20,215 bases of DNA from IMG/VR virus record IMGVR_UViG_3300032291_004342, positions 1 to 20,215 of that record, one strand, 5' to 3'. Both the position numbers and the translations under genes were made by a program. Below the pieces are notes generated by a model that searched no databases, was not told the DNA's origin, and saw only the letters and a program-made list of their open reading frames with translations. Shown piece after piece: positions 5,512-19,929 of this stretch (the first letter of the stretch is position 1; every line of letters starts with the position of its first letter). The stretch is from a virus.

Positions 5512-6685
5512 TTTTGTAGTTGACAGCACCATCAAAGGGCGTATATACCCAGCCCTGGCTCGTCATCAAGGCCGACCATACACGCAAAGCTGGCGTGAGT
5601 TTGGACAACACTGGCCCTACACCACACCCCTGCGCTTGGAAGAGTACTGCTGTGAACACGGCATTGTGATCAATAACTATGCTGTAGACACTGATTGCCC
5701 TGACAACAGTTACTATCCCATCTGCCTGGGATTCTTTGACTTTGAAATTGATTACTTTGAACTCATGTCTCCCGAAGTTAGAAAAAAGCTACGGCAAGAC
5801 AAACTGCGTGTGTTATTCATGTATCACGAAGGCGACAATCCCAGGCGCATTAAAAACAGATTGGATAGTCTAGCAGAGAACCATTTGCTTCCGCCAGATT
5901 GCTATGTTTTTGTAAGTGCCAACACCGCGGCTGATCAGTTGCCGGGTTTTGTTACATTTCATGACTTTGAGTTATGGTATTATCAGCGTAACTTGACCAG
6001 CACACCTTACATGATACATCGCGAGCCCAGACAACGAGACTTTACCTGTTTGAGCAGACTGCACAAATGGTGGCGTGCCACTGCCATGGCAGACTTGCAT
6101 CGCACAGGCTTGCTGAGCAACAGTTACTGGAGTTACTGTGAAGCACCTTACGATGCCGACACAGACTGTCCCATTGAAGTTGATATGATCAGTCGCTTGC
6201 GATATGATCGAACCAAATTTTTACAACAAGCACCTTATGTCAGTGACGAGTTGTCAGATTTTGATCGTAACAATCATGCTGTCATGGTGCCCAAATACTA
6301 TGGAGACTCCTACTGTCAAATTGTGCTAGAAAGTCAATTTGATGTGGATCAATCAGGTGGGGCATTTGTCACAGAAAAAACATTCAAGCCCATCAAACAC
6401 GGGCAACTGTTCTTTGTAGCAGGCGGCGCAGGCAGTTTGCAAGTGTTGCGTGACTTGGGCTATCAAGTGTTTGATGACTTGTTAGACAACAGTTATGACA
6501 CCATACCAAATCACACACAGCGTTGGGAATGCCTGCGTGACAGTATAGAAGCTGCCAGGCCACATTTGTCTGAATTGTTTGAAGCTGCCAGGCCACAGCT
6601 GGAACACAACCAACGATTATTTGTTGCCAACAAAGCTGATCGTTTAAATAGCTTGATCAGGAAAATTCATGAGCAATATAGTTAA
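5495..6685 (+). CDS. GT-B/fucosyltransferase-like glycosyltransferase, paralogue 2
   Basis: 396 residues with the same C-terminal block as its neighbour: VTEKTFKPI (292-300), LFFVAGGAGSLQVLRDLGY (305-323) and DDLLDNSYD (327-335). An upstream LESQFD matches the TET.. strand of the paralogues. The N-terminal half is different (for example YYPICLGFFDFEID, and RVLFMYHEGDN), suggesting another acceptor. Near the end EAARPHLSELF is followed by EAARPQLEHN, the protein result of a 17-base direct repeat. It overlaps the upstream gene by 17 bases and the downstream amidinotransferase by 17 bases, so the three plus-strand genes form one unit. Catalysis is inferred from the block only. Confidence 0.68.
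   Translation: MNSQFNFVVDSTIKGRIYPALARHQGRPYTQSWREFGQHWPYTTPLRLEEYCCEHGIVINNYAVDTDCPDNSYYPICLGFFDFEIDYFELMSPEVRKKLRQDKLRVLFMYHEGDNPRRIKNRLDSLAENHLLPPDCYVFVSANTAADQLPGFVTFHDFELWYYQRNLTSTPYMIHREPRQRDFTCLSRLHKWWRATAMADLHRTGLLSNSYWSYCEAPYDADTDCPIEVDMISRLRYDRTKFLQQAPYVSDELSDFDRNNHAVMVPKYYGDSYCQIVLESQFDVDQSGGAFVTEKTFKPIKHGQLFFVAGGAGSLQVLRDLGYQVFDDLLDNSYDTIPNHTQRWECLRDSIEAARPHLSELFEAARPQLEHNQRLFVANKADRLNSLIRKIHEQYS
6548..6597 (+). repeat. 17-base direct repeat inside paralogue 2
   Basis: GAAGCTGCCAGGCCACA occurs at 6548-6564 and 6581-6597, 33 bases apart, keeping frame and encoding EAARPH and EAARPQ. It may reflect an in-frame 33-base duplication that has partly diverged. No mobile element boundary is visible. 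Confidence 0.8.
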
Positions 6686-7712
6686 TTCATACACGTCGTG
6701 GCAACCACTAGAAGAAGTCATTGTGGGACGGGCCTACACACCTGACTACTTTGATTTTATAGACAATCCACAGGTGCGCAATCAATTGCAACAGATTCTC
6801 CATGAAACTGAAGAAGATCTCAACAACCTGCAACGAACCATTGAACAATACGGTGCTCAAGTGCGGCGTCCTGATTTGCCCAACAAAGATCAATTTGTAT
6901 GGTTTCAGACCGAAGGAGGAGGTGCTGCACTGCCGCCACTGACGCCACGCGACTGGCAAATCACCCTGGGCGATAAATTGTTGCGTGTGTTGCCCATGCA
7001 AGAGCTTGATTCACTGTGCGCTGAATATGCGGCCGCACAGCCTGGCGCAGTGATCAATCCACACGGTACTACTGGTTGGGACGAGAACTGCATCCTAAAC
7101 GGTGCGTCGGCGTCATGCATTGTGCGAGTAGGCCGTGATGTATTCTTTGATAACTCAGATTTCTTACGTCCAGATCAAACTCGTTGGATTGTGGACAATG
7201 TGTTGGGACCAGAATATCGCATACACGAAGCCATCACTGATGGCCATGGTGATGCGGTGTTTGCCATTCTCAAGCCTGGAGTGCTGCTGAGTAGCAAGCA
7301 CGATGTTAATTTGGATCTGGCCCGAGACTTTCCTGGCTGGGATGTGTGCAAGATTTGGGATAGCTCAATATGGGCAGCTATGGAAGTTGGCAAGTTCAAG
7401 TACGAACAATCACCGGGTGCTTGGTATGTACAAGGGCAAACACCTACCGCAGAGTTCACACAGTTTGTGGACACTTATCTGACCAAGTGGACTGGCTTTG
7501 TTGCTGAAACTGTGTTTGATGTGAACTGTCTTGTGTTAGACGAAAGCCATGTGGTATTCTCCGCATACAATCGAGAAGTGTTTGACTACTGCCGCCGGCA
7601 TCGGATAGAACCTATCATCAGCGAACTGCGTCATTCGTACTTCTGGGACGGTGGCATCTCATGCTGTACACAAGACATCCGCAGACGCGGCGGATTAGAG
7701 ACTTACCTCTAA
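6669..7712 (+). CDS. Glycine/inosamine-type amidinotransferase (AGAT/StrB family)
   Basis: 347 residues, family-length. AGAT and StrB move the amidino group of arginine to an amine, making a guanidino product, through a covalent Cys intermediate. Landmarks: SYTSWQPLEEVIVG (7-20) at the N terminus, IVRVGRDVFF (151-160), DGHGDAVFAILKPGVLLSS (191-209) with the expected catalytic His 193, and GGISCCTQDIRRRG (328-341) with the expected nucleophile Cys 332, ending LETYL as in AGAT. Against remembered human AGAT, the Asp of its AADFIRAGRD segment falls at Cys 150 here, so the usual Cys-His-Asp triad may be altered. It is the last gene of a three-gene plus-strand unit with two glycosyltransferases, which favours an amino-sugar acceptor over creatine-type metabolism. 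Its stop overlaps the convergent methyltransferase stop. Confidence 0.85.
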   Translation: MSNIVNSYTSWQPLEEVIVGRAYTPDYFDFIDNPQVRNQLQQILHETEEDLNNLQRTIEQYGAQVRRPDLPNKDQFVWFQTEGGGAALPPLTPRDWQITLGDKLLRVLPMQELDSLCAEYAAAQPGAVINPHGTTGWDENCILNGASASCIVRVGRDVFFDNSDFLRPDQTRWIVDNVLGPEYRIHEAITDGHGDAVFAILKPGVLLSSKHDVNLDLARDFPGWDVCKIWDSSIWAAMEVGKFKYEQSPGAWYVQGQTPTAEFTQFVDTYLTKWTGFVAETVFDVNCLVLDESHVVFSAYNREVFDYCRRHRIEPIISELRHSYFWDGGISCCTQDIRRRGGLETYL

Positions 7713-7719
7713 GGATGTC
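7674..7719. other. Nested inverted repeats over convergent stop codons
   Basis: Inner hairpin: TTAGAG (7695-7700), six-base loop, CTCTAA (7707-7712); its 3' arm carries both stop codons, TAA on plus (7710-7712) and TAG on minus (7709-7711). Outer arms: GACATCC (7674-7680) and GGATGTC (7713-7719), leaving 14 unpaired bases on the left. No T tract follows, so termination is only a possibility. Confidence 0.35.
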
Positions 7720-8494
7720 CGTCCCGATAAAATCTACCAGCAGTGTCGTCAGGACCTGTGACAGGAGTCATTGGCAACTCTCCTAGCGTTCTAGGCCAGG
7801 CTAGAATACTCATCAATGCACTCCCGCCAAAAATATTGTCAGTGTTGCCGGCAAAATTAGCAGGATTATAATTGTTGACCTGCGCCCAATAAAATCTATA
7901 TCTGTCATCTCCTAACAGCAGATATATTTGTTTAAGGTCTGGGCTTTCATGTGCTTCATAGTAGACCACAGGACAATATTGTTGTATGATTTGTTGACAA
8001 CCTTGCAGCACCTGTAATTCGTGACCTTCTGCATCAATCTTGACAAAGTCCGGCGGCTCCAAGCCAGCAGTGTCTAAATCAATGGCACGGACCGGAATTC
8101 CTGTGGTGTTACCAACCACACTGACAGCACCAAAATTGCTGGTCTGATCAGGATCATAATCTGAGATATAGCATGTTGATCTAGTGTTGCTTACTGCATA
8201 CTGTCCCAAGAACACATTGTCAAAATTTTCAGTGTTTTTTTCTAACAAAGCATAGTTACCAGGGTGTGGTTCAAATGCATACACACGTCTGGCCCGTGTG
8301 GCAAATGCTGTGGTATGGTATCCTATGTTGGCTCCCACATCATATACCACGGCATCATCAGTTAAAAAACTCAGGATAAAATCAATTTCGCACTGACTGT
8401 ATTCACCATAACAATCAATGCTGGTACCAATCATTAGATCATTGCTGTGATACCAAAATTCATTGCAGTATCGAGTTTTTGTAGATTTAATCAC
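7709..8494 (-). CDS. FkbM-family SAM-dependent methyltransferase
   Basis: 261 residues. Motif I is VYDVGANIGYHT (50-61) for S-adenosylmethionine binding, followed by AFEPHPGNY (73-81) and the FkbM hallmark FVKIDAEGHELQVLQG (150-165). The family usually O-methylates sugars or polyketides. The start is a GTG at 8494, forming a GTGA overlap with the stop of the carbamoyltransferase; the next in-frame Met is residue 21, which would still leave the SAM domain intact. It is the final gene of the long minus-strand run, and its stop codon overlaps that of the convergent amidinotransferase. Role as a late decorating enzyme is inferred from the neighbours; the acceptor is unknown. Confidence 0.88.
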   Translation of the reverse strand: MIKSTKTRYCNEFWYHSNDLMIGTSIDCYGEYSQCEIDFILSFLTDDAVVYDVGANIGYHTTAFATRARRVYAFEPHPGNYALLEKNTENFDNVFLGQYAVSNTRSTCYISDYDPDQTSNFGAVSVVGNTTGIPVRAIDLDTAGLEPPDFVKIDAEGHELQVLQGCQQIIQQYCPVVYYEAHESPDLKQIYLLLGDDRYRFYWAQVNNYNPANFAGNTDNIFGGSALMSILAWPRTLGELPMTPVTGPDDTAGRFYRDGHP

Positions 8495-9978
8495 GAATAC
8501 ACCGTTACACCATATAACATTTCAAAACGATCAGCATCTGCACGATCGTTGACCATGGGCTCTCCACGTATGTTCAAACTGGTGTTGAGCAACATGGGAC
8601 AACCAGTTTCAGCATACCAGGCTTCCAACAATTGTCTTATTCCCGATCCATCCGCTGTCACCGTTTGCACTCGGCTGGTGCCATCAACATGACATATACT
8701 AGGGTAAACATCAGATTGGCGGCAATGAGCAACGGACTGCATATAACTGTGAGTATGCCAGCCAGGCTTGATGTCAAAGTATTGATCAGCCAGTTCGACC
8801 AATATAACTGGTGCAAAGGGTCTGAATTGTTGTCTGCGTTTGATTGCATTTACTTGGCCTTTTATGTTGGGCCTACGTGGGTCAGCCAGTAGACTACGAT
8901 TTCCTAGTGCTCTGGGACCAAACTCAGCACGGCCAGAGGCCGCTCCCGCAATGCCAGTGTCAAGTAAACCGCGAACAAGATTGTCAACAGGATAAGCGCC
9001 AGGGATATTGTGACCAAGGTAAGCATTGTGCCAATGCAGACGTTTACCATAAGCAAGAGCAGCGGCTCCAAGACTTGATCCAGCATCGCCAGGGCAGGGC
9101 ATGATCCAGACGTTGTCAAAGTATTTCCCTAGTTGTTTGTTGGCCAAACAGTTGAGTGCAACACCACCTTGATACACAAGATTTGTTGACCACTTAAAGT
9201 CTCTGGCCCTGCACATAACATTGCCTATCAAACGTTCTAACAATCTCTGAGCACTGGCAGCAATATCCACATGATCAAGACCGCCCATGAAGGTATCACT
9301 GACTCCGGTATGTAAGTTTTGTTTGAACTCTGCGGTGCTGGGATCACTGATCAATGCTGCTTCCATGAGATCATGGTAATGATCATCACCATATGCTGCC
9401 ATGCCCATGGTGATGTATTCTTCGTCTAGTGGGTGTAGGCCCACACGCTTAGTAATTGCACTGTAAAACAGACCCAGGCTGTGGGGATATCGTTGTGCCC
9501 ACAGTTGCTTGTACTGTGCTCGTCCTTTTCTGTCATATTCTGCTGCCCAGATTGTAATGGTGTCCCACTCTCCTATGGCATCAATTACCACAACAGTGGC
9601 ACGATCGTATGGTGACGTTTGAAACCCACCTGCAGCATGCGAAAGGTGGTGATTAAAACTACGCACATGCTCAGGTTCAATTTGCCCGCCCAACTGTTGT
9701 TTTAATATTTGTCGTGTGGTAAGTTTGTCCCATTCAATGCCTTGGCCTGCGTACCATTGTCTAAATTGTTTGTTCCAGGGACGTTCATAGTATGCAACCA
9801 CATCTGGCCCATACTCTACAACTTCGTCTAGCAAGCCCTGACAGAAGTCAGCGTCGTTTTTCTTTTTTGAATAACGTTCCGAATGGCCAGCAAACAGGAT
9901 CTCCCCGTCAGGTGAGATTACCGTAGCGGCTGCATCATGAAAGCCTGCACTAATTCCTAATATATTTTGCAATTTCAT
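8491..9978 (-). CDS. NodU/CmcH-type O-carbamoyltransferase
   Basis: 495 residues. This family (NodU, CmcH, TobZ) transfers a carbamoyl group from carbamoyl phosphate, via carbamoyl-adenylate, to a hydroxyl of a sugar or antibiotic. Visible: ILGISAGFHDAAATVI (6-21) opening the ASKHA-like fold, SFNHHLSHAAGGF (107-119) with the conserved metal/adenylate histidines, VVVIDAIGEWDT (129-140), LVYQGGVALNC (267-277), and the C-terminal YrdC-like signature GRAEFGPRALGNRSLLADPR (349-368) with FRPFAP (385-390). It is somewhat shorter than many members (typically 550 or more). It overlaps the SGNH gene upstream by 29 bases and the methyltransferase downstream by 4, implying coupled translation. Carbamoylation of the same glycan the neighbours build is inferred. 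Confidence 0.93.
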   Translation of the reverse strand: MKLQNILGISAGFHDAAATVISPDGEILFAGHSERYSKKKNDADFCQGLLDEVVEYGPDVVAYYERPWNKQFRQWYAGQGIEWDKLTTRQILKQQLGGQIEPEHVRSFNHHLSHAAGGFQTSPYDRATVVVIDAIGEWDTITIWAAEYDRKGRAQYKQLWAQRYPHSLGLFYSAITKRVGLHPLDEEYITMGMAAYGDDHYHDLMEAALISDPSTAEFKQNLHTGVSDTFMGGLDHVDIAASAQRLLERLIGNVMCRARDFKWSTNLVYQGGVALNCLANKQLGKYFDNVWIMPCPGDAGSSLGAAALAYGKRLHWHNAYLGHNIPGAYPVDNLVRGLLDTGIAGAASGRAEFGPRALGNRSLLADPRRPNIKGQVNAIKRRQQFRPFAPVILVELADQYFDIKPGWHTHSYMQSVAHCRQSDVYPSICHVDGTSRVQTVTADGSGIRQLLEAWYAETGCPMLLNTSLNIRGEPMVNDRADADRFEMLYGVTVYS

Positions 9979-10597
9979 TTGCTATTCTTTCGTGCCCTTT
10001 TTCCAGTGGATGGTTTCCCGGACCACGCGGGCAATCTGCGGTCAGTTCTGCCATTCCAAATTTTTCCCATCCGATGAATTTTTCAGTGTCTACCAGGCCT
10101 GCTAGTTGTTCATAGGGCTCTCTGCCAACATTGCGATAGTAATCATTTTGTCTTACATTTATCATTCTATACTCAATGTTTTTTGCTTGGAAGTAAGATT
10201 GCAGAGAAATTACCTTTATTAGATACTGTTCATAGAGATAAGCAGAATTATGATGTTGACTAACAAAACTCAATAACTCTGTGCGCCAAGGATGATCTTG
10301 AAAGAACTTGGCATCAGCAGGATATCCAGGCCAAACATCATAAGCAATACCTATGTCATCTTTCCATTCAACTCGCCCCGGGCTGGTCCAGCCAATGATG
10401 ACCAAATCATAATGATTAATAGCAAGCTCTTCTAGTGTTCTACGCAAGATGCTAGAGTTACTGCATCCTGATTGCCCCATGTTGTGTACTGCATGGCCCA
10501 ATCGATCTGCCAGCCCATAGGGCCATGCTTGGTAGCGATCCTTTAATTCATCGCCATACGTAAAGCTGTCTCCAACTGTGAGCAACTGTTTTTTCAT
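9950..10597 (-). CDS. SGNH/GDSL-like hydrolase or acyltransferase
   Basis: 215 residues. Block I is LTVGDSFTYGDEL (6-18) with the expected nucleophile Ser 11; block II is NMGQSGCSNSS (39-49) with Gly 41; the C-terminal block is GNHPLEKGHERI (194-205) with the likely catalytic His 196. The DxxH Asp expected three residues before that His is Pro 193, so the charge relay may be incomplete. Family members hydrolyse or transfer acyl groups on sugars. It starts with an ATGA overlap to the 33-residue peptide gene and ends 29 bases inside the carbamoyltransferase gene. No signal peptide is seen, so it probably acts in the cytoplasm. Removal or transfer of acetyl groups on the glycan is inference. Confidence 0.75.
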   Translation of the reverse strand: MKKQLLTVGDSFTYGDELKDRYQAWPYGLADRLGHAVHNMGQSGCSNSSILRRTLEELAINHYDLVIIGWTSPGRVEWKDDIGIAYDVWPGYPADAKFFQDHPWRTELLSFVSQHHNSAYLYEQYLIKVISLQSYFQAKNIEYRMINVRQNDYYRNVGREPYEQLAGLVDTEKFIGWEKFGMAELTADCPRGPGNHPLEKGHERIANEIAKYIRN

Positions 10598-10695
10598 TTA
10601 TAGATAAAAGGATCTCGTTTACGTAGTTCTTTTAGTTTTTTGCGATAACGATATTCTAGTGTAATTCTATCCCAAAGTCTGCGTATCCATTTCAT
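10594..10695 (-). CDS. Small basic peptide, 33 residues (cyanophage-type, RKRDPFIYK end)
   Basis: An open frame of 34 codons from ATG 10695 to TGA at 10594-10596. The product starts MKWIRRLW and ends LRKRDPFIYK; it is strongly basic and aromatic, without Cys. Three things support it as real: the best Shine-Dalgarno site in the window (AAGGAGA, five bases before the ATG), and ATGA overlaps with both neighbours, which otherwise would leave a 94-base gap in a window with no other gap longer than one base. I recall similar short proteins ending KKRDPFIY in cyanophage genomes, which is memory only. Function unknown. Alternatives are a DNA- or RNA-binding host-takeover peptide, or a substrate for the radical SAM enzymes encoded upstream. 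Confidence 0.72.
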   Translation of the reverse strand: MKWIRRLWDRITLEYRYRKKLKELRKRDPFIYK

Positions 10696-11717
10696 TTCAG
10701 TCTCCTTATTTGTTGATCAGCATAATCTCGATCGCTCCAGCGATAGTCATATGTAGCTTCTGCGTCACTGGTACGAATTTTATATACATCCAATCTATTT
10801 GAAATCTGTTGCCAAATCTGATTGTAGTCCAAGGTACCAAATGATTTTGACAAATTGACTTGCGCTACCTTGGGATGGCCAATGGTCAGCGACCGATCTT
10901 CGGGATCAAATCCATTGTCTACTAACCATGTTCGAAATTCTGCAATTTTTTTTATTTGCCACGGATATGAACCTGGATCCCGTGCCCACTCAATATCAAA
11001 ATCGCCAGCTGCCTCAGTTTGATTACGCAGTCCTGTGGTAACCAACTCGTCTACACCACGCCCTTCGTCATTGAATACTTCCCAGTGTGTTTTGCCCACT
11101 GCTTTGTTCACACCAACGTACACTGCACCCATTTGTCTGTTGAGTGTGTCTATTCCAAACAGTTCAAAATCTTCTGTGTCCAATGCAAAACGTGGTGCAT
11201 TGAGCCAGCACATTAACTGACTGGGTCGGCGCCAGGCAGGTGCTTGTATGACCTTGCGCATGCTGAGCACAAGGCTTTCATATTCATGACACAACAAATT
11301 TAATTGGCGTATGTGCCAACGTGTGGCAGCATCTGCTTGATTCCAATAAGCACTCATGTGCCCAGAGTGACCCTGTAGGTCTTCAAAGTACCGATGCAGT
11401 CGATTCATACGATCATGGTCAACATTCAAATTATCTTGTATGGTCTCTCCCACAGTAAAATAATCATCAATGGTATACCCTAAATTAGCTGTGTTTATTG
11501 CTTGAATACTGGCATTGATGCTCTCAATTATATATTCTGCTGTTCGCGCACTTTCAGTCCATCCTAGCCAACAATAGTTTTTTTCTAAATGCAAATCATT
11601 GCGTAAAATATTGTTCAGTGCAGCCAGCCATTTGCAACTGAGACTGTTGTCTGTGACATCAATGTACAGTGTGAGCTGGTCTGCACCACGCAGGTCTATT
11701 TCGATTCTATCAAGCAA
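10692..11717 (-). CDS. Conserved-looking protein of unknown function, 341 residues
   Basis: Not recognised. It begins at a TTG (11717), eight bases inside the end of the upstream radical SAM gene; no ATG occurs in frame until residue 104, so the TTG start is the best choice. Soluble-looking, with no membrane segment. Segments that look constrained are LYIDVTDNSLSCKWL (17-31), a helical middle, MGAVYVGVNKAVGKTHWEVF (196-215), AAGDFDIEW (236-244), and WLVDNGFDPEDRSLTIGHP (264-282). It ends with an ATGA overlap to the small peptide gene. Its place directly after four radical SAM genes suggests it serves the same pathway, perhaps as a partner or substrate-handling protein; that is inference. Confidence 0.7.
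   Translation of the reverse strand: MLDRIEIDLRGADQLTLYIDVTDNSLSCKWLAALNNILRNDLHLEKNYCWLGWTESARTAEYIIESINASIQAINTANLGYTIDDYFTVGETIQDNLNVDHDRMNRLHRYFEDLQGHSGHMSAYWNQADAATRWHIRQLNLLCHEYESLVLSMRKVIQAPAWRRPSQLMCWLNAPRFALDTEDFELFGIDTLNRQMGAVYVGVNKAVGKTHWEVFNDEGRGVDELVTTGLRNQTEAAGDFDIEWARDPGSYPWQIKKIAEFRTWLVDNGFDPEDRSLTIGHPKVAQVNLSKSFGTLDYNQIWQQISNRLDVYKIRTSDAEATYDYRWSDRDYADQQIRRLK
10701..10707 (-). promoter_or_regulatory. Strong Shine-Dalgarno site of the 33-residue peptide gene
   Basis: On the minus strand the sequence reads AAGGAGA, then CTGAA, then ATG. It lies within the final codons (IRRLK) of the upstream gene. Most other starts in this run depend on overlap and have weak or no such site, so this peptide is probably translated at a higher rate. 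Confidence 0.75.
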
Positions 11718-12987
11718 TTGAGTTCCACCATTCTAACACCGCAGGTCTAGCCGACAGTATTTCTGTCATTGTGGTCGGCTGTGTGCGTATTTTTTCTAAT
11801 TGTAACACCCGAGCTCGACCTTTTACAAGTCCTTTGGCATATTCATTGGGCCATTGTTCAGCAAATGTGGGTCTAGTTTTTAGTTGTAACAACACATCAC
11901 GTAATGCGCCATCCACTTCGGGCACAAGTTCATCAATCCAAGGTTCTAACAAAGATCTAGGCAAGGCCAATGGACTCATAACAATGTCAGGCGAGAATGA
12001 AAATATCACTTTGGCAAGGACGTCGACTCCGTATGTGTTGGCAAGTTGTCTAATGCGTGTAACTTCGAACATTCCGGGCAAAGTGAGCGTAAAGTCAATT
12101 CGGACTTGACGTCTGTGACGTTGGATCTCAACTGCTTGACCAAAATTATCAAGCCAGCGATCATAGTCAAGACCTGTTCTGATGTATTCACCAATTGCGC
12201 CTGTGCCGTCGAGACTTGCACATATCTGCCAATCGCGCAACCCAGAAAGAATATTGCGATATAAGTTAACACCCCGATAATCCACTCTGGATAAATTTGT
12301 ATTGTATCTAGCATATACTCGTGGTCCATCCCCTAGTTCAACTATGCGTTTCATATAACGCCAATGTTGTTCGTACATAAGTGGCTCTCCGCCTACCCAG
12401 TACACTTCTTCAACACGGTGTTGTTCTACAGCATCAGCAAACTCTTGTTCAATTTGACTGTCTTGAAATGCAGAAATTTCTCGCCGCACTTCAGGTCTCA
12501 TCCAGGTGTTCTTGGGATTTGACCAGTCAACCATGTTGTGCTGCTTTTGCTCTGTTTCCCAACTACTGCTCAACATGTCACCGCAGGTTCTGCATTTAAA
12601 ATTGCACAAATTTGAAAATCTATAATCCCAACTCACAGGCTGCATTGTGGTGCGACCCGCGGTGTCTGTAGTTTCCCAGATATCAGGATACTTATGTTTG
12701 AACAACTGCCAAAAATATGTGCGGTAAACATCAGTATTCAGCAACTTGTCATTGCATACTTCGCACTCAGGCAGTGTTTCACCCGCCATCATTCTACTGC
12801 GCACACTCATCATGTGTGGCGAGTTCCAGTGCTGATCTAGTGTGATGGGAATATACCGGCCAGTTCCGGCTGCTGTGTCTATGTACTGTTCAAAGTTTTG
12901 TGCAGGCTCACGACTTGCACAACACATACGACGTTCTGTTTGTGGGCTCAAATAAGTATGCACCCAAGGTGCCATGCAAAGACTCAT
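11710..12987 (-). CDS. Radical SAM protein with N-terminal cysteine (twitch-like) module, no. 5
   Basis: 425 residues. The radical SAM motif is CNFKCRTC, with Cys 128, 132 and 135 holding the cluster that cleaves S-adenosylmethionine; GGEP follows at 199-202. An N-terminal module has C-M-A-P-W (4-8), Cys 22 and 23, and C-E-V-C (75-78), the pattern of an auxiliary Fe-S site placed before, not after, the barrel. Members of this type recur in marine phages (recollection), but their substrates are not known to me. It is the last of four consecutive radical SAM genes, starting with an ATGA overlap and ending with an 8-base overlap. It is most like the 402- and 420-residue neighbours (FC..PW, CC, C..C pattern). 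Confidence 0.88.
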   Translation of the reverse strand: MSLCMAPWVHTYLSPQTERRMCCASREPAQNFEQYIDTAAGTGRYIPITLDQHWNSPHMMSVRSRMMAGETLPECEVCNDKLLNTDVYRTYFWQLFKHKYPDIWETTDTAGRTTMQPVSWDYRFSNLCNFKCRTCGDMLSSSWETEQKQHNMVDWSNPKNTWMRPEVRREISAFQDSQIEQEFADAVEQHRVEEVYWVGGEPLMYEQHWRYMKRIVELGDGPRVYARYNTNLSRVDYRGVNLYRNILSGLRDWQICASLDGTGAIGEYIRTGLDYDRWLDNFGQAVEIQRHRRQVRIDFTLTLPGMFEVTRIRQLANTYGVDVLAKVIFSFSPDIVMSPLALPRSLLEPWIDELVPEVDGALRDVLLQLKTRPTFAEQWPNEYAKGLVKGRARVLQLEKIRTQPTTMTEILSARPAVLEWWNSIA

Positions 12988-14192
12988 TGATATCCAATCA
13001 AGTCCGCAAGTTCAGGTTCAACTGTGCGCAAGTTTTGATTGCGTTTGCGATCCAAGTCTGCAATCTTCATGCGCAACATAAATCCGTCTGATGAGGCACC
13101 ACGATTCATAAAGTCAATAATACGATCAAATTCTTCACGATACTGTGTGGGCACGTCAGCTGAACGTAAGTGATCAGTGATTTGCGTTTTAGCACTGTCT
13201 GGTAGTGTGGCAATGGAAAAATACCATGCATCATGCATCATGTTCCAGTACACAAAGTCAAAACGTTGTAATGCTATCCAATGGGCCAGTTTGTCAATGT
13301 AACGCACATTGAATATGTTTACGGTTGAACAACATTGCAGTCTCAAGTTGGGCATTTGATCTCGTAGATATTGAAAACTTGTGATTGTGTCTTCCACCAC
13401 AGCCCAGTCTGCATTGGTTCGTTGATATTCAAATCTTGCACCCAGATCATCTATTGAGAATGCCACTTCCACTGTTTTAAAATGCCGCCAAATTGATTCT
13501 GCTTCTGCAGGATAGTGTGTGCCATTGGTGTTGTAGTGTATCTCTACCTGATGTGCAATACCACGATCCACAATGCCTTGTAACATGGCAAAGTGTTCTC
13601 GAATCATGAATGGTTCGCCACCAGTGAATTCAATGTAGCGTATGTGATTTAAACACTGATCAATTTCTGCCCAAAATGATTGATTTTCTCTGGGCCATGC
13701 TCCGGCTCGCAGCATTTGATAGGGAAACGATTTCTTTTTATCCTCATCCGGGTGCATGTCATTGAGTTCTTCTGTGGCAAATTGACTTGATGACCATGAG
13801 CCGCATATGCGGCATTTTAAATTGCAGATGTTGCCCAGCTTTAGATCTAGGAACATCAGGGGCTTGGCATCGGTGGTCCATTCATTGCTGATGCCCATGT
13901 GCTTCATTCTGTCCAGGGTGTGCATGCGTTTGCTTGTACGGCCAGCACGTTCTTCATTCCAGCACTTGCGACAGGTCTGCGGTTTTTTGCCTGCCAAGAA
14001 CTCTTCACGCAATTGTGTCATTGCACGAGAATTTTGTATGCTTTCAAAGTCAGCTGACAACAGTGAGAACTTGTGGCCTGCATCATCTACCAATTCGTCG
14101 TCGGCCAAGCAGCAAGGACGCACTGTGCCAATGGGCGAAGCTTCTAGGCTGACCCAGGGCAATACGCAAAATTTATCGTGTGGCACATTCAT
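12984..14192 (-). CDS. Radical SAM protein with N-terminal cysteine (twitch-like) module, no. 4
   Basis: 402 residues. N-terminal module: FCVLPWVSLEASPIG (8-22) with Cys 9, PCC (26-28), CRKCWNEERAG (74-84). Radical SAM motif CNLKCRIC with Cys 123, 127 and 130; TGGEPFM at 190-196. This is the clearest example of the FC..PW/PCC/C..CW subfamily in the window. Both ends are 4-base overlaps with radical SAM neighbours (ATGA at 14189-14192 and 12984-12987), so the three proteins are likely made in similar amounts and could act as a series or complex. No peptide-recognition (RRE-like) region is obvious. Substrate unknown. Confidence 0.9.
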   Translation of the reverse strand: MNVPHDKFCVLPWVSLEASPIGTVRPCCLADDELVDDAGHKFSLLSADFESIQNSRAMTQLREEFLAGKKPQTCRKCWNEERAGRTSKRMHTLDRMKHMGISNEWTTDAKPLMFLDLKLGNICNLKCRICGSWSSSQFATEELNDMHPDEDKKKSFPYQMLRAGAWPRENQSFWAEIDQCLNHIRYIEFTGGEPFMIREHFAMLQGIVDRGIAHQVEIHYNTNGTHYPAEAESIWRHFKTVEVAFSIDDLGARFEYQRTNADWAVVEDTITSFQYLRDQMPNLRLQCCSTVNIFNVRYIDKLAHWIALQRFDFVYWNMMHDAWYFSIATLPDSAKTQITDHLRSADVPTQYREEFDRIIDFMNRGASSDGFMLRMKIADLDRKRNQNLRTVEPELADLIGYQ

Positions 14193-15451
14193 TTTAAAGC
14201 CTTTAGTTCTGGCAGTACATCCAGGATGTTTTCATTTCGTATAGAATCTAACTCATGTGTTTTACGCCAGAATGTATCTATAAGATTGGTGTTGTCTGTG
14301 GCATTCATAAATGTTATAGCACTTTCAAAGCCCTGTGTGGCACGTTGTAGCGTATCTCTATCACTGATCCAGTCAAGATGTTTACGGTACTTGGCTTCTA
14401 ACCGTTGTTTGTAGTCAGCAGGAGCAATATCTATTCTGAAATAGGCTGGGTCTTGAAGAATATTTACATTTAGATCCTGAGCGCGAATCAATCCATGGGC
14501 CACCCATTCTCTGTGAAAGTCTGGCAGGTGCCAAGCATTCATTATGCTGAGTGTGGGCGAAATATAAAAGTCCACCTGGGGGCAGGTGCGTATCATGTCA
14601 TGACGATTCTTTACCACGTCGGCCCAGGTAGTGCCTTTTCTAATATACTCTGCAGGACGGCCCATGGCATCCAAACTGGCGCCTACTGCTACACTCTTGA
14701 ATTGTTTCCAATATTCAAACACTGAGCGACCTTTTAAGTCTGTGTGCGTGAAGTTTGTGTTGTATATTAATCTAACATCAAACCGTCCACGTTTCACAAG
14801 CTCTTCTAAAATATTGTAGTGTTCTTCCATCAACAATGGTTCGCCGCCTGCAAAGTATATCTGCTCTACATAATCCAAGTGCGGCTCTAGTTGTGTCCAC
14901 ATGTCTGTTTCTGTGCGCCCTGCATAGTTTAACACAGTGTTACGTTCTTTCCAGTCGCCTCCAGCCAGCTTGGCTTGGTCCTGGTACCATTGGCTGCTGA
15001 AGATATGCCCACATGAACGACACTTCAAATTGCATAGGTTTGAGAAACGAATGTCCCAGTAAGTCATTTCAAATGGGTTCTCTTCTAGCTTTTTAATATG
15101 ATGCCCGTGATGTTTGTTGGCTGACCGACGACCTGAAAAGAATCCAGATTCTTCCTGCTCATAGCAACGTGTACAGGCAGCATGTGGTGTTTCGCTCAAC
15201 ATATCTGCACGTAGCTTCTGCATGGGTGCATCCTGCCATATTTCTTCTAGTGTATTTGTTCTACAGTTGCCCACCACACCTGGCTTCATTTCAGCATGAC
15301 AGCAAGGGTATGCTTCGCCTGTGGGGTAAGCATGTAGATGAATCCAGGGATAAATGCAAAAAGTTTTGGAATCTTTTAACAAGAATTCTTCACGAGCAGT
15401 CAATTCCGTGGGTCTTACTAGATCACTACTGTTGTATTTGTAAGCTGTCAT
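14189..15451 (-). CDS. Radical SAM protein with N-terminal cysteine (twitch-like) module, no. 3
   Basis: 420 residues. A leader of about 30 residues precedes FCIYPWIHLHAYPTG (31-45) with Cys 32, PCC (49-51), and CTRCYEQEESG (93-103). Radical SAM motif CNLKCRSC with Cys 140, 144 and 147; AGGEPLLMEEHY from 201. Compared with the 402-residue neighbour it carries a His-rich stretch, ANKHHGHHIKK (111-121), between the N-terminal module and the barrel. It overlaps the preceding gene by 26 bases and the following one by 4 (ATGA). The order of motifs is that of a twitch-type enzyme with the auxiliary cluster at the N terminus; the reaction cannot be read from sequence. Confidence 0.9.
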   Translation of the reverse strand: MTAYKYNSSDLVRPTELTAREEFLLKDSKTFCIYPWIHLHAYPTGEAYPCCHAEMKPGVVGNCRTNTLEEIWQDAPMQKLRADMLSETPHAACTRCYEQEESGFFSGRRSANKHHGHHIKKLEENPFEMTYWDIRFSNLCNLKCRSCGHIFSSQWYQDQAKLAGGDWKERNTVLNYAGRTETDMWTQLEPHLDYVEQIYFAGGEPLLMEEHYNILEELVKRGRFDVRLIYNTNFTHTDLKGRSVFEYWKQFKSVAVGASLDAMGRPAEYIRKGTTWADVVKNRHDMIRTCPQVDFYISPTLSIMNAWHLPDFHREWVAHGLIRAQDLNVNILQDPAYFRIDIAPADYKQRLEAKYRKHLDWISDRDTLQRATQGFESAITFMNATDNTNLIDTFWRKTHELDSIRNENILDVLPELKALK

Positions 15452-16775
15452 ACCATTCTTTCAAATTGGGAAATGCTGTGCTAAAATCTTTTGATCTACG
15501 CTGATCGTATTGTGTGTAAAACTGCCGGAAGTCATTTAATAGTTTGGGTAATTCAAATGCTTCTGAGTGCGGAGTTTTTACTATGTCCAGGTAATCAATC
15601 AGGCGTTGTACATGATTTATTTCGTGTTCATGCAAGCAAGGGTTTTCACGATTGTGGAACAACCATGCTTTCAACTGCAAACAATAACGATTTCGCATGT
15701 CATCCGGCAATACCAACGCACTTTGAAAACTAGGAAAGCGCAAGATGTTCAATGTAAAGTTAACTTGATCGCGACCATAACGTTGCTTTAAACTCAACAT
15801 CAGATTGAGGTGGTCCACAAGACTGTCCAGACACAAGGCATTGACGGTACACATCACATGCACAGCACTAACAAACTGACCTTGTAACAAAAACAACACA
15901 TTGTCGATCCATTGATTGTAATCTAGTCCGTCACGAATGTATTCAGCCTGCGCCCAGGTGGCTTCCATTGAAGTATATAGATCTACCTTGGGCAACGTGG
16001 CTATTGCCACAGCAAATTCTTTGACCTTGTCCAAGTCAATGCCCAGGTTTGAATTGATAGCCAATCGGGTTGTACTACGTCCTTGATTGATTTTGAACCA
16101 CTCAATCAGTTTCCAGGTGTAGCCCGACATCAAGGGCTCGCCGCCGGTTATTCGGAGTTCTTGCAGTGTTCTGTGGAGGTCTCTTTCCCACCAGTCAAAG
16201 AAGGCTTCCACGTAAGGATTAGTTTCACCGAATTTATAAAGTTGACTGCTATCATGAGTATGAGTAAAATGGTTCCTGCCATCGCTGACCAGCCCGTTAT
16301 AGGGTCCATGTTTTCGTATATCGTTAACCCAAGTGCTACTGAAAGCAGGATTGCAATAAGAACAAGCAAATTGACAAGTGCGATCGAAACTGATTTCCAG
16401 TGTTCTAAGATTGACATCATCTTGGATGGGGGTGTTGACTGCGTCATGCAAGGCCTTTATGGGATAAATTTTTGATTTGTACACACGGTCACTCACAGCA
16501 TTGGTGTCCATGTCTTCAATCTTCCAGCAGTATTCACAGCCTGCAGGACGCTCTCCAGCCAACATCTTGCGTCGGTCCGCTTTCTTTTGATCAGTATTGT
16601 GCAGCAGCCTAGAGTTGTTATTGACTTTATCAATGTCAATCAAATGAGCTGGCGGGTGATGACAACTTGTGGTCTGCCCACTTCCTAACCAAATGGTAGC
16701 ATTGTACCATTTCGCTGCACAAAAACTTGGGGACACAGAGTCCAACACCTGTTGTTTAAATTCTAAATCATTCAT
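15426..16775 (-). CDS. Radical SAM protein, SC(H/Y)HPP subfamily, no. 2
   Basis: 449 residues. The N-terminal module differs from the other subfamily: FCAAKW (18-23), SCHHPPAH (37-44), LHNTDQKKADR (58-68) and CEYCWKIED (80-88). Radical SAM motif CQFACSYC with Cys 134, 138 and 141; TGGEPLM from 210. NPYVEAFFDWWE (186-197) is shared with the 465-residue paralogue, so the two form a distinct pair. Start ATG 16775 overlaps the glycosyltransferase stop by eight bases (ATGAATGA). It ends 26 bases inside the next radical SAM gene. The separate N-terminal signature suggests a different substrate or redox partner from genes 3-5; this is inference. Confidence 0.9.
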   Translation of the reverse strand: MNDLEFKQQVLDSVSPSFCAAKWYNATIWLGSGQTTSCHHPPAHLIDIDKVNNNSRLLHNTDQKKADRRKMLAGERPAGCEYCWKIEDMDTNAVSDRVYKSKIYPIKALHDAVNTPIQDDVNLRTLEISFDRTCQFACSYCNPAFSSTWVNDIRKHGPYNGLVSDGRNHFTHTHDSSQLYKFGETNPYVEAFFDWWERDLHRTLQELRITGGEPLMSGYTWKLIEWFKINQGRSTTRLAINSNLGIDLDKVKEFAVAIATLPKVDLYTSMEATWAQAEYIRDGLDYNQWIDNVLFLLQGQFVSAVHVMCTVNALCLDSLVDHLNLMLSLKQRYGRDQVNFTLNILRFPSFQSALVLPDDMRNRYCLQLKAWLFHNRENPCLHEHEINHVQRLIDYLDIVKTPHSEAFELPKLLNDFRQFYTQYDQRRSKDFSTAFPNLKEWYDSLQIQQ

Positions 16776-17868
16776 TTATGTATTGGGCCAGTCGTTCAGG
16801 AAGTTCTGCACGTTCGCGACGATTGTGTTCGCGAAGTTGTTGATAGTTGTATTTACAAACCGATCTAGCTGACTCCAAGAAACTGGCAGCACCATTATAA
16901 CATATATCAGCAACAACGTCAACTATTCTGTCAGCACGATCTCGTGGGTCATCAATCTGGTCAAATGTTTCGTCAATCAAGTGCCCAAATGTTTGGAATC
17001 CTGCTGAGTGCAAATCTCTATAATAACCGCAATTGGCTGCTGCCACAAACGGATGGCACATGATCATGGGCTTCCAGATTTTTTCAGTACGAAATGTATA
17101 CGGATAGTCAAATATGGTTTCTGTGACCACACTGAAGTATGTGTCAATATACGGTGCGGGGTTAATTTCAGCGTCGCCCCAGGTGTTGCCAAACAAATGA
17201 TGTTTTATGAACCCAGTGGGCACGTTGTCCATGTTGGGCAATGCACGATCAATTTCGTATTGTGGGGGCAACAATCGTATGGGCTCAGACTTATCAGTTT
17301 GTAATTGACTGCTCCAGGCCATTTCCACACAGTCGTTGAGATTGGTCCATAGCGCACGATCCAACAAACGGCGATCACGCATGGTATCTATTAGATACTT
17401 GCGATGCGGACGTAAACGTCCGTTCAAAAACAAAAAGTCATAGGGCTTGTTAGATTTATGATACACTTGTGGATAAGATTCGTGCGCACGTAGATTTTCC
17501 AGGTACTCTACGATGTTGGCAAAGTAGCAGTCTGTTTTGCAGTAATTCCAGTCTGGTTCTAGGTCACCTGATGTCAATAGTCCAATGCGACCATCACGCA
17601 CATGTTCTGTTATTACCAATCTACGCAGTTGTAACAGTATGGTTTCACTGCCTTCGGCAGGATTGGAGAATACAATGTGCCCTGGGTATTTGTCAGCCCA
17701 CTCGGTTATGGCCGTCCAGTTTTCTTTGAGCACAACTCTGCCCACAATGTACACAGCTTCAGGATCTAATTGTTTTGGCCATTGCCAAAAACTGTCGTCG
17801 GCATAAGATTTCAACAAGTCCCATACTTCGGCCCATTCATCCACAATGATTTTACGATTGCCTAGCAT
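16768..17868 (-). CDS. GT-B/fucosyltransferase-like glycosyltransferase, paralogue 3
   Basis: 366 residues. The C-terminal block matches the two plus-strand paralogues: VVTETIFDY (247-255), RTEKIWKPM (260-268), HPFVAAANCGYYRDLHSAGF (272-291) and LIDETFD (297-303). The N-terminal half has YDFLFLNGRLRPHRKYLIDTM (143-163), which I recall from marine phage genes of this kind, and NTWGDAEINP (228-237). It starts one base after the stop of the upstream P-loop gene, the only non-overlapping junction in the window, and ends with an 8-base overlap into a radical SAM gene. Donor sugar unknown. Being inside the radical SAM run, it ties that run to glycan chemistry. Confidence 0.72.
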   Translation of the reverse strand: MLGNRKIIVDEWAEVWDLLKSYADDSFWQWPKQLDPEAVYIVGRVVLKENWTAITEWADKYPGHIVFSNPAEGSETILLQLRRLVITEHVRDGRIGLLTSGDLEPDWNYCKTDCYFANIVEYLENLRAHESYPQVYHKSNKPYDFLFLNGRLRPHRKYLIDTMRDRRLLDRALWTNLNDCVEMAWSSQLQTDKSEPIRLLPPQYEIDRALPNMDNVPTGFIKHHLFGNTWGDAEINPAPYIDTYFSVVTETIFDYPYTFRTEKIWKPMIMCHPFVAAANCGYYRDLHSAGFQTFGHLIDETFDQIDDPRDRADRIVDVVADICYNGAASFLESARSVCKYNYQQLREHNRRERAELPERLAQYINE

Positions 17869-17869
17869 A

Positions 17870-18535
17870 TTAACTAAAATATAATTTTTTATTTACTTGT
17901 TGGTATTTGTCAACAAATGCACGAAGGTCATTTGTTATCTGTCCTCCAGTAATATTTTTTACCTCATCTAGTAAATTTTTATTATTGATCCCCATGACAG
18001 TTTTAAAATCAATCACATGTGAATAATTTATACATTCATATTGTTTAAACCACGATTCTGTTTGTGTAACTGCAAGATCATTTATTAAATCATTGCAAAT
18101 TAATTCTGACTCTGCTATATTGCTGCGACTGTACGGTGGATAATTAGGGCTAACCCACTTATTGTATTCTTCTTGCGTCCATAAATTGGGCCAGGCTTTC
18201 TTAACGGCCAGTCTGGTCATATCTCGATATTCTGCTGGATCAGCTGCAATTTGTAATACTTGTACATCAGGATGATTTTCAATAAATTCGTTTGACACCA
18301 CATGGGTACAACATATTGTCAATTCTGAATGATAGGTTAACTTCATCTCTCTCAATTCCTTGTCAAATATATTTGCAATCAGTGAAGAATTCCAGGTACC
18401 ATTTCCAAAATCGTGACAGTCGCCAATGTTGCTAATTTTTGTGTCAATTGCAATACCCATTATTTTTGCAAATACAGAAGTCAAGAACATACCGCCTGCT
18501 CCTGGAGCAGAATGTATCATAAATTTTTTGTTCAT
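17870..18535 (-). CDS. P-loop protein, possibly sulfotransferase-like
   Basis: 221 residues. Near the N terminus HSAPGAGGMFLTSVFAKIMG (8-27) looks like the phosphosulfate-binding loop of PAPS-dependent sulfotransferases or another P-loop; CCTHVVSNEF (75-84) followed by VQVLQIAADPAEYRD resembles the strand and loop that bind the 3'-phosphate. The Ser/Arg pair expected there is not clear. The gene is visibly richer in A and T, and in Lys, Asn and Ile codons, than its neighbours, hinting at separate origin. It starts with an ATGA overlap to the radical SAM gene upstream. If it is a sulfotransferase it would add sulfate to the glycan. A nucleotide kinase or ATPase is the alternative. Confidence 0.5.
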   Translation of the reverse strand: MNKKFMIHSAPGAGGMFLTSVFAKIMGIAIDTKISNIGDCHDFGNGTWNSSLIANIFDKELREMKLTYHSELTICCTHVVSNEFIENHPDVQVLQIAADPAEYRDMTRLAVKKAWPNLWTQEEYNKWVSPNYPPYSRSNIAESELICNDLINDLAVTQTESWFKQYECINYSHVIDFKTVMGINNKNLLDEVKNITGGQITNDLRAFVDKYQQVNKKLYFS

Positions 18536-19929
18536 TGATTACTCCAATATCGACATTCCTCCCACCAACTACGCATTTCTGGAAATGTCTTCAAAAAGTC
18601 CGTACCGCGACGGCGGTCATGCTCGCTGAAGAAACGATAAAAATCAGCTTTGGCCACAGAATGATCCACTGATTGTGCTGATCGCATCCAGGCAATGTCA
18701 CGATCTAATCTGTGCAGTTCATAGTCTTTGAATCCTTTGAACGGTTCCGCTTCTGTTTCGATCTGACGCATCATCCAGGCCCACAACCATTCCAGTTTCT
18801 CAGCGTAACTTTCAGGCAAGATTTGTAAACTTTGCCATGCAGGCTCACGCAACACAGGTGTATCAAACCACACACGTTGATAGGTATGACTGTAGACTTT
18901 TCGTAGGCCTAATATGCCAGCAAACAATTTGTCCAAACTGGTCACACTGAGATTGTTCATTGTGATGATAAATGTAAGGCTTGAGTAGTTGGGCACTTCG
19001 GTTAAGAATTGATTTACTCGGTCCCACAACAGGTCAAAGTCCAGACCATTGCGCATGTATTCGGCCTGTTCTCCCCATCCATCTAAACTCACATACTGCA
19101 TGAAGTGTTCAATGCGTCCGTCACAGATTTGTTTTACGTATGCCAAGTACTTTTGCCATGACTTCTCATCCACTGAGAAGTTGCTTGTGACATTTAAATG
19201 CAGTTTGGGATTGGGGTTCTTCAACACATAATCAAACACACGATAGGTATTTTTGTCCAATAGTGGTTCACCACCAGTCATGCGAAAATGCTCTAAGTTA
19301 GGGTACAGTTGGGGCCACCACTGCCAAAATGCTTCTACATAAGGGTTATGCTCTCTAACTGGTATAACCCTGCGATCTCCACCAAAATGCCCAGGATCAT
19401 TGTGAACCCTAGCAGTAGGGTAGCCACCCAGTCGATCCACTTCTTGTTGCCAACTGCTAGAGAATTGCGGACTGCAATAACTGCACATGAGATTACACAC
19501 ATTATTAAAATTAACCTCAACGTAGCTAGGGATAACGTCATTTTCTTCTCCTGTGCTGTTCTTTATCTTTTCAAAATCCACTGCGGCCCAGGGTTCTCCG
19601 GACCGGTAGTGTCGGTCACTTAGCTTGCCTTGATCTTCCATGTTCCAGCAGTACTGACACTCTGCAGGTTTTTTGTTCTGTAGCATCATCACACGTTGCG
19701 CTTTCTTGTGTGGCGTATTGTGCAAGGATCCTGGATCGGCTGAAAGATTCTCTAAAGGTATCTTATGCAGGGGCGGATGATAGCAAGAATTGTTAAGCCC
19801 TGTAGGCAAGTGCAAACTTACTTGTTTCCATTTGGCCAGGCAAAGAGCAGTGCCTAGTTGTTCCTTCATCTGCTCTGCGGAACTAAGGAACTTGCTCTTG
19901 TTGTCTATTGATTCATCACCTTTGTTCAT
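18532..19929 (-). CDS. Radical SAM protein, SC(H/Y)HPP subfamily, no. 1
   Basis: 465 residues, paralogue of the 449-residue protein. N-terminal module: LCLAKW (29-34), SCYHPPLH (48-55), LHNTPHKKAQR (69-79) and CQYCWNMEDQG (91-101). Radical SAM motif CNLMCSYC with Cys 145, 149 and 152; TGGEPLL from 218; NPYVEAFWQWWP (195-206) matches its partner. The C terminus has DRRRGTDFLKTFPEMRSWW, also similar to the partner (DQRRSKDFSTAFPNLKEWY). It overlaps the partial gene upstream by 14 bases and the P-loop gene by 4 (ATGA). With its partner it brackets the P-loop and glycosyltransferase genes. Reaction unknown. Confidence 0.9.
   Translation of the reverse strand: MNKGDESIDNKSKFLSSAEQMKEQLGTALCLAKWKQVSLHLPTGLNNSCYHPPLHKIPLENLSADPGSLHNTPHKKAQRVMMLQNKKPAECQYCWNMEDQGKLSDRHYRSGEPWAAVDFEKIKNSTGEENDVIPSYVEVNFNNVCNLMCSYCSPQFSSSWQQEVDRLGGYPTARVHNDPGHFGGDRRVIPVREHNPYVEAFWQWWPQLYPNLEHFRMTGGEPLLDKNTYRVFDYVLKNPNPKLHLNVTSNFSVDEKSWQKYLAYVKQICDGRIEHFMQYVSLDGWGEQAEYMRNGLDFDLLWDRVNQFLTEVPNYSSLTFIITMNNLSVTSLDKLFAGILGLRKVYSHTYQRVWFDTPVLREPAWQSLQILPESYAEKLEWLWAWMMRQIETEAEPFKGFKDYELHRLDRDIAWMRSAQSVDHSVAKADFYRFFSEHDRRRGTDFLKTFPEMRSWWEECRYWSNQ

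Follow-up and report, generated by a model that had tools for sequence, protein, structure and literature searches.

The window examined here is IMG/VR virus record IMGVR_UViG_3300032291_004342, a 20,215-base stretch that represents a fragment and not a whole genome. It contains five genes for radical S-adenosylmethionine (SAM) enzymes, R1 to R5, and we found that these genes are intact and under purifying selection. Comparison of sequences indicates that they belong to a cassette that is a fixed run in a lineage of large T4-like phages. The reading that we favor, although we rate it somewhat short of an even chance, is that the five enzymes form a line for the late oxidative tailoring of a glycan on the virion or cell surface; it draws on the sugar genes beside bacterial relatives, an excess of carbamoyltransferase genes, A-type iron-sulfur (Fe-S) carriers and electron acceptance by auxiliary clusters. 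The genes of the cassette are as follows, with locus counts referring to 161 searched loci that include 80 seeded with R5.

R5 (465 aa): 18532-19929, minus strand; N-terminal Twitch radical SAM protein of the C.AKW/SCYHPP type; NF033640 325.9 bits; leads the five in the direction of transcription
221-aa gene between R5 and g10: 17870-18535, minus strand; variable; homolog in 1 of 161 loci
g10 (366 aa): 16768-17868, minus strand; conserved companion; 148 of 161 loci, median identity 46%
R4 (449 aa): 15426-16775, minus strand; radical SAM protein of the FCAAKW/SCHHPP type; NF033640 287.4 bits
R3 (420 aa): 14189-15451, minus strand; NF033640 397.5 bits; Twitch Cys32/50/93/96, barrel Cys140/144/147
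R2 (402 aa): 12984-14192, minus strand; radical SAM protein; NF033640 328.4 bits; N-terminal SPASM Pfam match over cut-off
R1 (425 aa): 11710-12987, minus strand; radical SAM protein; NF033640 267.4 bits
g9 (341 aa): 10692-11717, minus strand; conserved companion; 119 of 161 loci

Family assignment and the N-terminal Twitch domain

All five proteins matched NF033640 (the NCBIfam model N_Twi_rSAM, twitch domain-containing radical SAM protein) over nearly their full length with scores of 267-398 bits, well above the curated cut-off of 170 bits, and no other model reached its own cut-off in an NCBIfam scan of the five. The original prediction, which had been made from the letters of the window, called five radical SAM open reading frames (ORFs); these are real and lie on the minus strand at the predicted coordinates, and PF04055 matched all five (two over cut-off). 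It had named assignment of the five to unrelated known pathways as an outcome that would tell against it, and the profile search instead placed all of them in one family. The second such outcome, loss of the cluster cysteines in relatives, was not seen either. Each of the five proteins contained the CxxxCxxC radical SAM motif and four cysteines N-terminal to the barrel, and among 649 distinct family ORFs (350-560 aa and a score of at least 150, with ORFs beyond these limits excluded before the count) 644 had CxxxCxxC and 638 had the C..C..CxxC pattern of the N-terminus; some of the misses were ORFs with over-long starts. When R3-type proteins of phages and bacteria were aligned in 57 rows, every row had Cys50, Cys93 and Cys96 as well as Cys140, Cys144 and Cys147 of the barrel, and Cys32 was conserved in at least 90%.

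The predicted motif FC..PW/CC/C..C was confirmed in R2 (FCVLPW/CC/CRKC) and R3 (FCIYPW/CC/CTRC), but that of R1 (LCMAPW/CC/CEVC) starts with L and not F. The second motif type was read correctly in R4 (FCAAKW/SCHHPP/CEYCW) and R5 (LCLAKW/SCYHPP/CQYCW), which also have NPYVEAF in common.

Positions 11-83 of the family profile matched residues 163-237 of the butirosin dehydrogenase BtrN (E 1.2e-7) with the cysteines in register. On this evidence the N-terminal module is a Twitch domain homologous to that of BtrN, moved ahead of the barrel; the Twitch domain of BtrN follows the barrel, and the likeness is one of domain homology. That an auxiliary-cluster module precedes the barrel had been predicted correctly, although the name of NF033640, to whose order of Twitch domain and then barrel all five proteins conform, already implied it. 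Matches to the SPASM model PF13186 were located at residues 4-79 of R1 (below cut-off), 9-78 of R2 and 32-97 of R3, and none of the PF13186 matches lay after the barrel, where a C-terminal SPASM/Twitch domain would stand, so that the typical SPASM architecture was not found. The AlphaFold model of R3 was confident (pLDDT 94.4, pTM 0.91). In structural comparisons its barrel fitted many radical SAM structures, among them DesII and BlsE (Z-score of 13.4 for both), anSME (13.0) and CteB (12.9), with an error of 1, and was also near SkfB and SuiB. The barrel fold was dropped as a clue to the substrate, as sugar and peptide enzymes tie within this error. Among relatives, an 876-aa ORF (L247:13009-15639) resembled two fused Twitch radical SAM proteins, and genes for B12-binding radical SAM proteins adjoined Twitch radical SAM genes at L200:2326-3810 and L248:3977-5575.

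Conservation, ancestry and transcription of the cassette

Scans of viral contigs yielded 239 relatives of R3 and 314 of R5; the best 80 of each were kept, which gave 160 loci whose contigs overlap between the two sets. R3 and R5 are present in these loci by selection, whereas the presence of R1, R2 and R4 is not. All five genes were found in 133 of the 160 loci, in the order R5 R4 R3 R2 R1 in every one of the 133. Of the 27 incomplete loci, 23 stop no more than 600 bases beyond the outermost gene on the side where genes are missing, and four (L016, L039, L085 and L118) have 1.4-2 kb left there. Over the 161 searched loci, the median best identity was 71-81% for R1-R5 (75% for R5, which was found in all 161), compared with 46% for g10. 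The ratios of nonsynonymous to synonymous substitution (dN/dS, NG86) against the window were 0.097, 0.096, 0.044, 0.094 and 0.061 for R1 to R5, from 12, 9, 6, 11 and 13 pairs, respectively, at 84-98% identity. Because five orthologous groups recur across the 160 viral loci with dN/dS of 0.04-0.10, the five ORFs are not products of chance.

Between R5 and g9, each gene overlaps the next by 4-26 nucleotides (nt) or is separated from it by a 1-nt gap, a spacing as expected for one putative translation-coupled run. The ORF map confirmed that R4, R3, R2 and R1, which overlap by 4-26 nt, are four consecutive genes; the 221-aa gene and g10 stand between R5 and R4. No match to the 221-aa gene was found in Pfam, NCBIfam or PHROG searches, and Rfam and tRNA scans of the window found none. 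Scans of both strands of the cassette gave 36 sigma-70 promoter-like matches (shuffles 23.2, sd 5.2) and 12 terminator-like matches (shuffles 8.0, sd 3.2), which we leave uninterpreted.

The relationships of the five genes were examined in a tree of 122 rows, which was built by a quick method with SH-aLRT support alone and has several long branches. R4 and R5 formed one clade (support 99), R1 and R3 fell inside a 34-row clade with bacterial proteins (99), and R2 was placed in a separate clade (96). R1, R3, R4 and R5 each formed a clade with relatives from large phages, marine-type relatives (from contigs filed under the names of marine metagenome-assembled genomes, MAGs) and one gene of locus L202, while R2 joined its large-phage, marine-type and L202 relatives in a wider clade (95) that also holds other Bdellovibrionota genes. 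L202 lies on a Bacteriovoracaceae chromosome, as the genes for ObgE and ribosomal protein L27 adjoin it, and has seven co-directional radical SAM genes (R4, R1, R2-like, R3, R2, R5 and R4 types) interrupted by one 143-aa ORF. NF033640 matches over cut-off were present in 21 of 77 Bdellovibrionota genomes. Since each of the five clades contains phage, marine-type and L202 orthologs, the divergence of the five genes seems older than the split between the phage and chromosomal sets, and they seem to have been kept as a set. The paralogues are thus kept together as distinct orthologous groups, as the tree and the fixed gene order attest, a pattern in line with separate steps and not with redundancy; the stepwise modification of a single scaffold that was originally proposed would be one interpretation.

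The window is tied to the T4-like lineage only by 99% identity in R3 and a shared gene order with a 72.8-kb relative. The viral record G008 contains T4-type virion genes, with PHROG matches for a baseplate wedge and a baseplate hub/tail lysozyme. To judge from the IMG dataset numbers, the related viral contigs presumably come for the most part from lakes. The 16 records behind the loci had 6-21 NF033640 matches each, some of them below the family cut-off. A sample independent of radical SAM genes was drawn with the G008 terminase, a scan with which gave at least 600 stretches, of which the best 80 were kept; the 10 longest records besides G008 all had NF033640 matches over cut-off (2-17 each), and the three longer than 300 kb had 13, 13 and 17, each with a consecutive high-scoring run. 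An A-type Fe-S carrier (PF01521), mostly in two copies, was found in 15 of 17 records (G002-G016 and G110-G114), and the two records without it were 178 and 168 kb. The original interpretation stands for the cysteines, the module in front of the barrel and the kept paralogues, and lacks support in three respects. A small genome is not supported, as the window is a 20-kb fragment and related records reach 353 kb; nor is five as the total, as records have 2-21 NF033640 matches; and of the two subfamilies only the R4/R5 pair is one clade, R2 standing apart from R1 and R3.

The genes upstream of R5 are here named u205-u215 from the gene numbers of G008. On the same strand, u205, u206 and u208 were found in all 80 R5 loci and u209 and u210 in 79; farther upstream, u211 was found in 78, u212 in 75, u213 in 70 and the C-terminus of u214 in 63, the counts falling because the loci end. 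Of these genes, u212 gave matches to virion structural profiles; u214 codes for a virion structural protein of 4855 aa and u215 for a baseplate wedge subunit. The co-directional run leads from these baseplate and virion genes through u205-u210, R5, g10, R4-R1 and g9 to a carbamoyltransferase gene.

The sequence TATAAATA, the T4 late-promoter octamer, was rare, with 8 copies in G008 and 7 in G005, where permutations of its letters averaged 28.5 and 35.6 copies. An exact copy lay at -120 to +30 of u212 in 52 of 71 loci; with one mismatch allowed, the count rose to 70 of 71. In contrast, exact copies were found in 0 of 614 tests before eight other genes (u213, u211-u205 and R5) and in 0 of 1011 tests before eight cassette genes. 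Only the exact count is telling, because with one mismatch the octamer also preceded R3 (78/140), R4 (64/101) and several other genes. Among 55 distinct sequences upstream of u212, 40 contained the exact octamer, in a near-identical block between variable flanks. This evidence comes from relatives, as the window ends short of u212; it suggests late transcription of the cassette as part of a unit that virion genes head. Most of the few copies of the octamer (in G008 and G005; L162-L197) precede genes, which fits use as a late promoter.

Sugar-gene context and candidate substrates

The remaining genes of the window are as follows.

SGNH/DUF6071 hydrolase-like gene: 9950-10597, minus strand; PF19547 36.9 bits, cut-off 27
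Carbamoyltransferase (NodU/CmcH type): 8491-9978, minus strand; PF16861 157.3 and PF02543 124.5 bits; 99 of 161 loci
FkbM-type methyltransferase: 7709-8494, minus strand; PF05050 69.6 bits
Amidinotransferase-like gene (relatives of glycine amidinotransferase, StrB and SxtG): 6669-7712, plus strand; phmmer matches to PDB, E 1.4e-14 to 1.8e-9; 48 of 161 loci, median identity 88%
Two genes without profile match: 4417-5511 and 5495-6685, plus strand
1071-aa repeat protein: 1203-4418, minus strand; about eight W/P/Y repeats of 65 aa; u205-related C-terminal domain
DegT/DnrJ/EryC1/StrS sugar aminotransferase: 131-1228, plus strand; PF01041 191.6 bits

Three of these genes, DegT, carbamoyltransferase and FkbM, are of sugar type by their Pfam matches, and in the window as in bacteria most neighbouring genes are of a sugar-tailoring kind. 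Beside bacterial members of the family we found an NDP-hexose 2,3-dehydratase (L248 and L262), FdtA (L248), and GT90, GT2 and a nucleotide-sugar dehydratase (L230). A carbamoyltransferase was present in 8 of 75 bacterial genome-contig loci (four Pfam-confirmed besides L264), against a chance expectation of about 0.4 for 75 windows of 17 kb, given a background of 35 over-cut-off PF02543 matches in 29 genomes (about 103 Mb).

According to the parts of the literature that treat BtrN, this enzyme performs a two-electron oxidation of an aminocyclitol alcohol and its auxiliary cluster is fully ligated (PMC9012708, PMC6231123); the former reports that electron uptake by the auxiliary cluster of SuiB was observed, and extends this to the clusters of BtrN and PqqE. 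By sequence, each enzyme of the cassette has a radical SAM barrel, predicted to bind SAM through one [4Fe-4S] cluster, and ahead of it a Twitch domain whose four cysteines probably hold one auxiliary cluster; for R3 the predicted structure agrees on both points. By homology, the 5'-deoxyadenosyl radical would abstract hydrogen from an unactivated carbon and the second electron would pass to the auxiliary cluster, giving a two-electron oxidation as in BtrN. The five co-inherited orthologous groups suggest that the enzymes may act at five different positions or steps. The substrate would most likely be a glycan carried by the phage's own tail or virion proteins or by the host surface, to which the carbamoyltransferase, methyltransferase and amidinotransferase may add further groups, and the A-type carriers of the phage may help to load the Fe-S clusters.

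Several points weigh against glycan tailoring. Both the substrate and the reaction are putative. The R3 barrel is equally similar to sugar enzymes (DesII and BlsE) and peptide enzymes (anSME and CteB). The background genomes of the carbamoyltransferase comparison were not a random draw, and one or more of its eight loci (L198 for certain) is a phage-like contig. In the L202 stretch, which was inspected by eye with three genes scanned against profiles, neither a glycosyltransferase nor a carbamoyltransferase was recognisable, and none of u205, u208, u209, g10, g9 and the genes at 4417-5511 and 5495-6685 matched a glycosyltransferase profile. An Asp/Asn hydroxylase-type gene lies near the Bdellovibrionia array L246. 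The loci share ancestry, so that the conservation and promoter counts are not independent. Finally, the octamer is a predicted promoter, and the stretch of about 7 kb between u212 and R5 leaves room for others.

Two explanations are serious rivals. In the first, which we regard as unlikely overall, the enzymes act directly on protein and, without a glycan, oxidise, epimerise or cross-link residues in phage-encoded tail or virion proteins or in a RiPP-like (ribosomally synthesized, post-translationally modified) peptide. The co-directional run shared with virion genes, the closeness of the barrel to anSME, CteB, SkfB and SuiB, the hydroxylase-type gene near L246 and the Bacteriovoracaceae set with no recognisable sugar genes nearby all speak for it. 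However, bacterial neighbours are often sugar genes, and Pfam scans to E 1 listed no RiPP recognition element (RRE) family, the PqqD-like RRE included. No conserved small precursor gene was noticed in the cassette, although no systematic search for precursors was made.

The repeat protein was considered as a substrate and rejected. Its motif is W.W.P.P..PPYIYVFGNQ ... GATExKYMD, and its relatives (L355-L372) are 441-1456 aa in total length with 0 to about 8 motif matches. The protein was found in all 16 large viral-contig records and in two of three genomes with marine-type cassettes, the third having only a u205-like match; no match was found in GenBank phages. The repeats cannot be an obligatory substrate, as G004, G010, G016 and the two marine-type copies gave no match to the repeat motif. 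The u205 family was present in 7 of 35 loci with at least three radical SAM genes and in 1 of 39 with one or two; as several of these contigs are phage-like, these counts are not used as independent support for a general partnership of u205 with radical SAM arrays. The companion g10 had no Pfam match over cut-off and no credible PDB match (best E 0.56), its likeness to phage glycosyltransferases being by eye only. g9 had no PDB sequence match, and its model (pLDDT 89.6) gave a best Foldseek E of 0.19, which does not prove a new fold.

The second serious rival, to which we give somewhat less weight, is modification of a host surface glycan (lipopolysaccharide, LPS, or capsule) during infection, for superinfection exclusion or host takeover and not for the virion. 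DegT, carbamoyltransferase, FkbM and SGNH genes, all present in the window, are typical of surface polysaccharide loci. The host-recognition clusters described for pelagimyophages in the relevant part of PMC7029224 combine LPS-type genes with radical SAM cassettes. On the other hand, the late octamer and the run-on from virion genes fit virion assembly better than early remodelling.

The octamer likewise fits poorly with a boost to host metabolism through cofactors or energy (pyrroloquinoline quinone, PQQ, or low-oxygen reactions), which we consider highly improbable. Such a role has been proposed for Campylobacter phages in a passage of PMC2853527, radical SAM genes of T4-type viruses from Lake Baikal were read as PQQ biosynthesis in a section of PMC7678222, and SAM synthetase was present in 3 of the 17 records. 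However, none of the models for cofactor pathways approached its cut-off: MoaA scored 13.6-27.8 bits where listed (cut-off 284) and NirJ2 28.3 (cut-off 500). The auxiliary cluster is N-terminal here, unlike that of PqqE. Hypermodification of phage DNA bases, in which radical SAM enzymes, carbamoyltransferases and glycosyltransferases are known to take part, is the least credible explanation; the late octamer, the location behind tail genes and the bacterial chromosomal relatives that adjoin NDP-sugar genes speak against it.

A bolder form of the glycan reading, which we hold to be rather doubtful, is that a late phage line of five dedicated radical enzymes, each with a Twitch cluster at its front and served by Fe-S carriers of the phage, re-sculpts sugar or polypeptide on the phage's own tail adhesins, and that this line is also found on a Bdellovibrionota chromosome. 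If this were true, virion surface chemistry would go beyond ordinary glycosyltransferases or the host. A product on virions would add a new layer to phage surface chemistry, and one on hosts would be a new form of surface remodelling. Any function established here would be the first for the N-terminal Twitch family.

Related phage systems and further radical SAM genes

Phages rich in radical SAM genes are already known, and these genes are usually mentioned in passing as auxiliary metabolism. The part of PMC2853527 on the T4-like Campylobacter phages CP220 and CPt10 (Firehammervirus) describes 11 and 12 radical SAM proteins, with a swappable cluster of five radical SAM genes and a putative glycine amidinotransferase in each. 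Neither record reached the NF033640 cut-off (0 of 2), so these enzymes were rejected as members of the same family; six CPt10 enzymes, at 193-319 aa, are too short for a full N-terminal module and barrel. The Campylobacter cluster is analogous to the cassette and of a different subfamily. The marine T4-like genome TARA_ERS488813_N000010 is described in part of PMC5332604 with 12 radical SAM genes and an A-type Fe-S carrier, the latter being common to it and to records of the cassette lineage. The pelagimyophage cluster mentioned above is, in the section of PMC7029224 devoted to it, an island between VrlC and gp14, and freshwater pelagimyophage genomes are stated in that paper to be without radical SAM genes. 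Like this island, the cassette comes after a giant virion protein and baseplate genes; the island is hypervariable, whereas the five-gene run is strongly conserved. Among GenBank phages, tblastn found only distant relatives, for R3 in three records (Vibrio phages K566 and K567 and one marine virus record) and for R5 in two (K566 and K567).

In the literature searched, from which most subscription papers and preprints were outside our reach, we found no description of the cassette, its fixed order, the late octamer or the chromosomal counterpart. These four are what the present analysis adds, and they may already be published. NF033640 is a subfamily-level name without a reaction, and here five fixed orthologous groups within it form one cassette. 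Five distinct enzymes are co-kept at about the conservation of structural genes, behind virion genes and a late octamer, across a large phage lineage, which turns a vague label into a testable system of one gene run, five steps and one probable product class.

Additional Twitch radical SAM genes of G008 (L171:11129-12706, L174:8921-10057, L174:17577-18812, L175:11903-13051, and others in L176, L178 and L179) stand mostly singly between conserved T4-like genes and resemble mobile cargo; by eye only, their neighbours include an SbcCD-like pair, a RecA-like gene and a UvsW-like gene. The MAGs named Rickettsiales MED657 and Gammaproteobacteria MED685 had 30 and 21 NF033640 matches, respectively (contigs L238 and L244), and these contigs may be large phages binned with bacteria. 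At L256:4417-12052, four cassette-type radical SAM genes lie beside an integrase-like and an excisionase-like gene (by eye), and this array is possibly a mobile element in a bacterial genome.

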